From a virus: DNA of 44,641 nucleotides. The notes beneath the pieces were generated by a model. The model saw nothing but the letters and a program-made list of their open reading frames with translations. It was not told the DNA's origin and ran no database searches. Position 1 is the first letter of the stretch. Each line of letters opens with the position of its first letter. The position numbers and the translations under genes are program-made. The stretch lies in IMG/VR virus record IMGVR_UViG_3300010367_000276, positions 1 through 44,641 of that record; one strand, given 5' to 3'. Shown here piece after piece: positions 37,734-39,065 of this stretch.

Positions 37734-37814
37734 CCGATCAAGCACACGTTATACCACCAAGCTAATCATAACGAATATGCTAGGTGTAATAGCAACCAGG
37801 AGGCGCGATGGAGC

Positions 37815-39065
37815 GTGAACATCCTTTCTCTCTGCAGTGGAATAGCCGGCCTGGATCTGGGGGTGAAGATCGCTCTGCCAGAATCAAGGGTCGTTGGCTA
37901 TGTCGAAGGTGACGGATACTGCCAGCGGGTACTGGCTGCCCGAATTTCTGACGGCTCCCTCGACTGCGCCCCCATCCACGGCGACCTTACCCGCTTCGAC
38001 GGGCGACCCTGGCGTGGATGCGTGGATCTCGTCATTGGCGGCTGGCCCTGCCAGGACATCTCCAACGCTGGTCGCCGTGAAGGCATCCGGGAAGGCAACC
38101 GCTCGGGCCTCTGGTTTGAGTTCGTCCGCGTCCTTTGCGAGGTTCGACCCCGATGGTTCTTCGGCGAGAACGTGTCAGCTCTCCTTGGACGGGGAATGGA
38201 CACCGTTCTCCGAGACCTTTCCGCCCTCGGGTATGATGCGGAATGGCTCTGCGTATCAGCGGCCGACGTGGGCGCGCCCCACCTCCGCAAGCGGGTCTTC
38301 ATCCTCGGTGTGGCCGACGCCGAAGGCCGAAGCGAAGGATGGTCGTCGGGGCAGCGATCCGCGCCACGGGCGAGTGCTGGACGAGGAAGCGGCGCTCTGG
38401 CCGACGCCCAACGTGCCGAACGGGGGCCGGACGCTCTCTCCCGAGGCTGTAGCGGCGAAGGGAGCGACGGCGAAGGGGAAGCGGCAGGTGGGGCTGGAGA
38501 ATGTGGCTTCCCTGTGGCCGACCCCGGCGAGTGCGGACGGGGAGCGGGCCAGCCTGACCTACCCGGGGAACCACAACCCGACGCTTCTGGGCGCCGCTGT
38601 GGGCTTGTGGCCCACAGCGGGAGCGAACGACTGGAAGGGGACGGCGAAGCCGGGCCGGCGCCGGGGTCAGTTGGACGAGGCAGCGGAACAGTTGTGGGCC
38701 ACGCCGAGCGCCAGTGTAGCGAACGACGGCGAGGGACCGAAGACCTGGCACGCGCGAGCGGCGAAGCTGAAGGAGAAGCACGGCAACGGGAATGGAGCCG
38801 GAATACCTCTGACGATCCAGACGCAGGACTTCCGCTCTTCCCTCCCGGACCTGCCGACCGAGCCGGATGGGCAGCCATCCTTGCCGAACGGCCCGACCTC
38901 GCGCCTGCAGTTGAACGCGGCGTTCGTGGAGTGGATGTTCGGACTGCCCGCCGGGTGGACCGGCTTAAAGCCCTTGGCAATTCCGTTCTGCATCTGCAAG
39001 CTGCGGCAGCATTTGCAGTGCTTGCTTCGAGGCTAGGCGATTGGGAAGAGTCGACGATTCCCTGA
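37815..39065 (+). CDS. C5-cytosine DNA methyltransferase
   Basis: Four hundred and sixteen residues from GTG 37815. Motif I is SLCSGIAGLDLG, motif IV GGWPCQDIS with catalytic Cys, motif VI ENVSALLGRG, motif VIII SAADVGAPHLRKRVFILG, and motif X RLKALGNSV near the end. Five low-complexity V(A/G)D/H repeats fill the target-recognition area. It would protect phage DNA from restriction. AGGAGG at 37798 sits 11 bases before the start; the ATG at 37808 is better spaced but in another frame (33 codons). A second long ORF shares most of this DNA. Confidence 0.9.
   Translation: MNILSLCSGIAGLDLGVKIALPESRVVGYVEGDGYCQRVLAARISDGSLDCAPIHGDLTRFDGRPWRGCVDLVIGGWPCQDISNAGRREGIREGNRSGLWFEFVRVLCEVRPRWFFGENVSALLGRGMDTVLRDLSALGYDAEWLCVSAADVGAPHLRKRVFILGVADAEGRSEGWSSGQRSAPRASAGRGSGALADAQRAERGPDALSRGCSGEGSDGEGEAAGGAGECGFPVADPGECGRGAGQPDLPGEPQPDASGRRCGLVAHSGSERLEGDGEAGPAPGSVGRGSGTVVGHAERQCSERRRGTEDLARASGEAEGEARQREWSRNTSDDPDAGLPLFPPGPADRAGWAAILAERPDLAPAVERGVRGVDVRTARRVDRLKALGNSVLHLQAAAAFAVLASRLGDWEESTIP
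37900..39036 (+). CDS. Overprinted WPTP-repeat protein in the methyltransferase gene
   Basis: Three hundred and seventy-eight residues in the +1 frame, lying wholly inside the methyltransferase. Its sequence is not random: FSETFPPSGMMRNGSAYQRP, five WPTP-like repeats (VWPTPKAE, LWPTPNVP, LWPTPASA, LWPTAGAN, LWATPSAS) and LNAAFVEWMFGLPAGWT. I recall very similar proteins annotated next to or within phage methyltransferases. The repeats come from the same DNA as the V(A/G)D repeats of the other frame. It may be a true overlapping gene or a shadow of a conserved frame. Confidence 0.5.
   Translation: MSKVTDTASGYWLPEFLTAPSTAPPSTATLPASTGDPGVDAWISSLAAGPARTSPTLVAVKASGKATARASGLSSSASFARFDPDGSSARTCQLSLDGEWTPFSETFPPSGMMRNGSAYQRPTWARPTSASGSSSSVWPTPKAEAKDGRRGSDPRHGRVLDEEAALWPTPNVPNGGRTLSPEAVAAKGATAKGKRQVGLENVASLWPTPASADGERASLTYPGNHNPTLLGAAVGLWPTAGANDWKGTAKPGRRRGQLDEAAEQLWATPSASVANDGEGPKTWHARAAKLKEKHGNGNGAGIPLTIQTQDFRSSLPDLPTEPDGQPSLPNGPTSRLQLNAAFVEWMFGLPAGWTGLKPLAIPFCICKLRQHLQCLLRG

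Follow-up and report, generated by a model that had tools for sequence, protein, structure and literature searches.

Within the 44,641 nucleotides of IMG/VR virus record IMGVR_UViG_3300010367_000276 (the whole stretch analysed here, called the window), a C5-methyltransferase gene is open in two frames of the same strand for more than 1.1 kb, the second frame (beta) being offset by +1 relative to the first (alpha). The locus raises the question of whether beta is a protein-coding frame or a systematic shadow of alpha and, if both frames are coding, which part of the enzyme each supplies. The surroundings form a temperate-phage early region with a recombinase-like gene, a Cro/C1-type HTH gene, and an AAA/Toprim replication gene. 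The features of the locus are as follows.

37798..37803, + strand: Shine-Dalgarno-like AGGAGG, read directly, with a spacing of 11 to the alpha GTG at 37815
37815..39065, + strand: alpha coding sequence, frame 1, GTG start, 416 aa (motifs I–VIII, V(A/G)D filler, motif X)
37815..38312, + strand: functional part of alpha with motifs I–VIII, from Pfam and PDB matches
37900..39036, + strand: beta coding sequence, frame 2, ATG at 37900 and TAG at 39034–39036, with AAGG 10 bases upstream
37900..38310, + strand: beta leader, lying over alpha motifs and for the most part shadowing them; stop-free in relatives
38310..38910, + strand: alpha filler with V(A/G)D repeats, kept open in relatives, whose substitutions fall on alpha codon position 1
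38311..38397, + strand: WPTP cassette 1 of beta
38398..38514, + strand: WPTP cassette 2 (NVPNGGRT...KGKRQVGLENVASL), 84% identical in locus L028 (alpha reading 41%)
38515..38607, + strand: WPTP cassette 3, with a related cassette in L032
38608..38694, + strand: WPTP-type cassette 4 (WPTAGANDWKGTAKPGRRRGQL), with related cassettes in L033, L046, and L070
38695..38832, + strand: WPTP-type cassette 5 (...KLKEKHGNGNGAGIPL), 76% identical in L152 and also present in the single-chain locus L008
38911..38961, + strand: motif IX in beta (LNAAFVEWMFGLPAGWT), beta-type selection in 84 of 86 pairs
38952..39029, + strand: motif X in alpha (RVDRLKALGNSV...), with selection of the alpha type in 77 of 82 pairs

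The two overlapping open frames described in the original prediction are confirmed, with alpha reaching 39065 and beta running without a stop from 37867 to its TAG, a length of 380 codons when counted from the alternative start TTG 37894; the third frame contains numerous stops. The alpha ORF extends 5' to 37707, and the GTG at 37815 is its likely start. The start codon of beta is not fixed by conservation, since the candidates among relatives differ in position and in Shine-Dalgarno strength, and the Shine-Dalgarno sequence before the candidate in the window is modest. The five V(A/G)D-type repeats of alpha (38310, 38397, 38514, 38607, and 38694) and the five WPTP-type repeats of beta (38311, 38398, 38515, 38608, and 38695) are, as predicted, identical bases read one position apart.

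Our analysis revealed that alpha is catalytic only in part. It matches the Pfam family DNA_methylase (PF00145, 4.6e-33) over residues 1–168, including PC (motif IV) and ENV (motif VI), HaeIII/HhaI in the PDB over residues 1–166, and PHROG 363. The claim that alpha carries all C5 motifs including X was right for motif X (GNxV), which is present as RLKALGNSV, but not for motif IX: the Pfam and PDB matches stop at residue 168, and neither motif IX nor a target-recognition domain (TRD) was found in the alpha chain by Pfam, PDB, frame selection, or motif comparison. We also considered whether alpha might be complete by itself, its V(A/G)D repeats acting as the TRD, and rejected this candidate because of the low alpha-frame identity in shared cassettes and the missing motif IX.

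Motif IX was found in beta, as FVEWMFGLPAGWT, in the segment that aligns with the canonical LTPLECERLQGFPDGWT of L018. Beta readings scored z 4.4–8.3 against the canonical motif and the alpha reading of the window scored z −0.4, the alpha reading of L015 also giving a moderate score (z 4.0). The WPTP array lies where the TRD is expected, between motifs VIII and IX. The N-terminal part of beta (FSETFPPSGMMRNG) mostly shadows alpha motifs VI–VIII, and the leader shows little constraint of its own except for the absence of stops. Beta matches PHROG 1008 at 2e-38; the phage-database sequence to which the original prediction referred for this frame is thus real, and the family is built from the beta frame. 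Searches of beta against Pfam and NCBIfam gave no match, including no HNH domain, and a search of PDB sequences with the beta profile found nothing.

Related loci were collected from IMG/VR, GTDB genomes, and GenBank phages with beta, alpha, and a single-chain relative as queries, and were classified by profiles for motifs I–VIII, IX, and X and by the relative frames of these profiles. The pooled non-redundant set contains 241 loci split like the window (IX in the +1 frame and X back in the alpha frame), together with 24 AquI-like loci (IX and X in +1), 31 loci in which one frame holds I–VIII, IX, and X, and 7 others. In a sample selected by alpha and blind to beta, 69 of the 80 loci had the layout of the window; this sample holds the closest matches, ranking by E-value tilts toward close relatives, and the fraction is therefore no measure of prevalence among all C5 enzymes. 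Among single-chain relatives, L269–L279 from actinophages and L008 have motifs I–VIII, a PTP array of WPTP/LPTP blocks, IX, and X all within one frame; in some of them the frame switches inside the array. Pfam matches on the fused chains did not extend into IX–X, and the betas of AquI-like loci were unmatched. In fused actinobacterial loci such as L112, L128, and L131, motifs IX and X have returned to the alpha frame but some of the array is still in +1, and loci of this type show a mixed substitution pattern in the array. In some split loci (e.g., L111, L180, and L349), the beta ATG lies 4 bases after the alpha ATG, so that the starts overlap or adjoin as ATGAATG; with this arrangement, one Shine-Dalgarno sequence may serve both alpha and beta.

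The openness expected by chance was estimated by fixing one protein, resampling its codons, and checking the other frame. For the window alone, the probability of beta being open across the array given alpha was 0.22, and that of alpha being open given beta was 0.004; double openness is thus only moderately improbable in the window, but across relatives it is far beyond chance. The alpha frame across the array was open in 138 of 140 split loci (6.7 expected with beta fixed), and the beta frame over the last 80 codons of motifs I–VIII was open in the same number, 138 of 140 (25 expected with alpha fixed), while the third frame across the array was open in only 2 of 140. These 80 codons, which end with motif VIII, contain in the relatives only 3 stops among approximately 11,200 codons of frame +1, compared with approximately 360 stops in the third frame. 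Farther upstream than approximately 80 codons, beta-frame stops become gradually more frequent; beta thus starts upstream of the end of motif VIII, at a position that depends on the locus. In the beta-blind sample, beta was open across motifs VI–VIII in 79 of 80 loci (10 expected) and alpha across the array in 68 of 69 (5.3 expected). Double openness was observed in every GC class, for example in all 46 loci with 45–55% GC (1.3 expected). Alpha does not have to extend to motif X in AquI-like loci; there it ends shortly past motif VIII, and across the array its frame was open in none of 15. The V(A/G)D repeats of split loci shadow the WPTP array, and stay free of stops to let alpha extend through them to motif X.

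Frame-specific selection was examined in 105 independent pairs of split loci, in which alpha codon position 1 equals beta codon position 3. Substitutions at alpha positions 1/2/3 numbered 1079/671/2778 in motifs I–V, 1519/843/2542 in VI–VIII, 1287/508/420 in the array, 427/149/158 in motif IX, and 169/89/466 in motif X. The corresponding sign tests, given as alpha-type to beta-type pairs, were 98:0, 96:4, 6:55, 2:84, and 77:5. Motif X of AquI-like loci, analyzed as a control, takes the beta pattern (52/16/6), and in fused loci both IX (11/16/68) and X (44/34/95) take the alpha pattern. The tolerant position thus tracks the domain in split, AquI-like, and fused loci, indicating that protein constraint follows the functional domain in whichever frame it lies. 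Within the window, where this analysis rests on cassettes and no close relative of the entire gene was found, cassettes shared with relatives have identities of 0.63–0.84 in beta and 0.22–0.46 in alpha, with 48/30/96 substitutions by beta codon position. The GC content of the window array by codon position fits beta (0.67/0.58/0.84) and is similar to that of the phage primase (0.69/0.44/0.81).

These results indicate that neither frame is simply a shadow of the other; both contain one functional part and one part that serves as filler without stops. The original prediction had left the choice between a conserved dual-coding gene and a shadow ORF, and had asked for constraint to be compared in both frames. 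Conserved dual coding was the right description, since both frames are kept open across relatives and selection switches between them, the substitutions in the 105 pairs changing to the beta pattern over the array and motif IX. The shadow description applies locally, to the V(A/G)D repeats of alpha and most of the beta leader, but not to beta as a whole. The outcome named as refuting, a beta frame that gathers stops while alpha is conserved, is excluded by the openness of beta in the alpha-selected loci.

We are fairly confident, from motif content and frame-specific constraint, that the locus encodes a two-subunit C5-methyltransferase of the overlapping M.EcoHK31I type, in which the recognition region has moved to beta as a cassette array. 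Alpha would supply the AdoMet-binding and catalytic core (motifs I–VIII) and motif X, joined by the non-functional V(A/G)D filler. Beta would begin inside the coding region of alpha motifs I–V and continue through the leader and a WPTP recognition array, with cassettes of approximately 30–45 residues, to motif IX. The two polypeptides would be translated separately from one transcript and assemble into one enzyme, and the cassette array may set the methylated sites, possibly several, as in the multispecific enzymes of Bacillus phages. The most likely role in the phage would be protection of its DNA from host restriction; since no restriction gene adjoining the methyltransferase was recognised in the window, a self-protecting orphan methyltransferase is the likely form of this role.

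Known enzymes offer partial parallels. The smaller polypeptide of M.EcoHK31I is encoded in an alternate frame within the gene for the larger one. M.EcoHK31I, like M.EaeI, is a two-polypeptide C5-methyltransferase recognizing YGGCCR, with motifs I–VIII and X in the larger polypeptide and motif IX in the smaller, and its TRD has been predicted in the larger subunit (PMC3404938). The window resembles it in that alpha has I–VIII and X and beta has IX, and in that beta lies in the +1 frame (37900–39036) inside alpha (37815–39065). In contrast, the TRD region of the window, and the selection on it, are in beta, as an array of exchangeable WPTP cassettes. The likeness drawn here is one of domain division. 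M.AquI (CYCGRG) is a split C5-methyltransferase of two polypeptides divided within the variable region (PMC3404938). The 24 AquI-like relatives, such as mycobacteriophage Blue7 gp92/gp91, share this division, with motifs IX and X both in the second frame; unlike M.AquI, the window has motif X back in alpha and ORFs that overlap by more than 1.1 kb.

By pairwise comparison of modules, the WPTP blocks behave as exchangeable cassettes. Relatives have 0–7 units per beta, with a typical spacing of approximately 28–45 aa and the start consensus [WL]PTPxA. Among 2230 similar module pairs, 286 exceeded the identity of their alpha N-termini by 25 points or more; in one example, near-identical units (95%) accompany alpha N-termini of 45% identity. 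Exchange was judged by pairwise identity only, as single-linkage clustering merged 438 modules into one cluster. The multispecific C5-methyltransferases of Bacillus phages SPR, phi3T, and rho11 carry tandem independent TRDs of approximately 40 aa in their variable region. The five WPTP-type units of the window are of similar length, which makes these enzymes an analogy; they differ in being single chains with TL motifs, whereas the array lies in the other frame and the strict TL motif is absent. The strict form, P[STCA]PT[ILV][TASV] with an upstream aromatic and a basic residue, was found in 0 of 738 modules, and a relaxed TL core in 65 of 738. Each cassette may recognise a target of its own. 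A literature search found no published description of a WPTP array.

We lean toward the view that these genes represent a large and mostly unrecognised class of phage and bacterial C5-methyltransferases, in which an exchangeable WPTP array, read in +1 relative to the catalytic frame, holds the specificity. Any swap of cassettes would need to leave both frames free of stops; the shadow frame would in this way constrain the evolution of specificity, and each cassette could have its own target. The most serious alternative accepts the two-frame enzyme but takes the WPTP array as a single composite recognition or scaffold domain, not a set of independent target cassettes. The strong common start of the units and the missing strict TL motif point in this direction, and structure prediction did not provide a fold. 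In the AlphaFold model of the single-chain L008, residues 1–383 align with residues 12–325 of M.HhaI (Z 24.7), with a confident catalytic domain and pLDDT of approximately 94–98 for IX–X, while the array has low confidence; the model of the window beta is poor (pTM 0.29) and supports no claim made here. Against a composite domain, the modules vary in number from none to seven and move between loci as units, as exchangeable cassettes would; we regard it as possible but doubtful.

Programmed frameshifting would produce one complete chain if the ribosome moved from alpha to beta after motif VIII and returned before motif X. The functional parts would then be joined in order, and single-chain relatives do exist. 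However, the split type demands two opposite shifts, and frameshifting leaves unexplained why alpha is open across the array and why beta stays open over 80 or more codons ahead of the junction; the alpha frame of AquI-like loci ends shortly past motif VIII. We therefore consider frameshifting improbable, and favor two separately translated subunits.

A still less likely explanation is that beta is a separate gene with another task, for example one for a selfish protein such as a homing endonuclease, lying over the methyltransferase. Out-of-frame HNH genes nested in phage methylases have been published (PMC11855218), and one such element lies in the methyltransferase gene of Gordonia phage Inspectinfecti. 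This ShiLan-type HNH is likewise a second protein in the other frame of a phage methylase gene, but it is an inserted selfish endonuclease and not a part of the methylase (PMC11855218), whereas the window beta is without an HNH domain or any other Pfam match. Motif IX, missing from alpha, is in beta, and the same array belongs to the methyltransferase in fused relatives, which makes a separate function very unlikely. Hardly credible is a systematic shadow ORF, with alpha as the whole enzyme and beta open through GC-rich codon usage and conserved motifs: the leader is indeed largely dictated by alpha VI–VIII and the openness of beta in the window alone is unexceptional, but in the array and motif IX it is the third codon positions of beta that take up the substitutions, beta is open far beyond expectation in the beta-blind sample and at 45–55% GC, and the PTP array is in the main frame of single-chain relatives.

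This study also bears on the annotation of methyltransferases. PHROG 363 and PHROG 1008 are listed as unconnected DNA methyltransferase families but represent, in this group, the two frames of the same loci; gene callers have thus picked different frames in different phages. The sampled records usually list one frame of the two: for Acidovorax phage Alfacinha1 and Pseudomonas phage phPA-G this is beta, and for Acinetobacter phage ABMM1 it is alpha. In several, the catalytic frame is the missing one. The record of mycobacteriophage Blue7 lists both AquI-like halves as the overlapping genes gp92 and gp91. Hundreds of phage and bacterial genes share the layout. If our reading is correct, this kind of long same-strand overlap, which in phages is mostly set aside as a curiosity or artefact, would become a widespread and testable architecture with a switch of the selected frame where one domain meets the next. 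Databases would then hold many “VADA-repeat” methyltransferases annotated as whole enzymes though their recognition region is in the other frame, and their specificity would be unpredictable from the listed protein. If the cassettes are independent recognition units, they would amount to a natural library, of use in programming cytosine methylation and in predicting phage anti-restriction.

Individual phages show further variants of the gene. In Mycobacterium phage Llama and its relatives (L025:1501-2260), alpha is broken within motifs VI–VIII into two fragments, gp74 and gp75, both annotated as methyltransferase, whereas the alpha frame is intact in phage Spikelee (L026). In Inspectinfecti, the HNH (PHROG 5046; L353:1886-2341) lies in +1 inside the C5-methyltransferase gene, upstream of a beta-type LPTP segment and in the same frame, so that a ShiLan-type element and the overlap occur in one gene.
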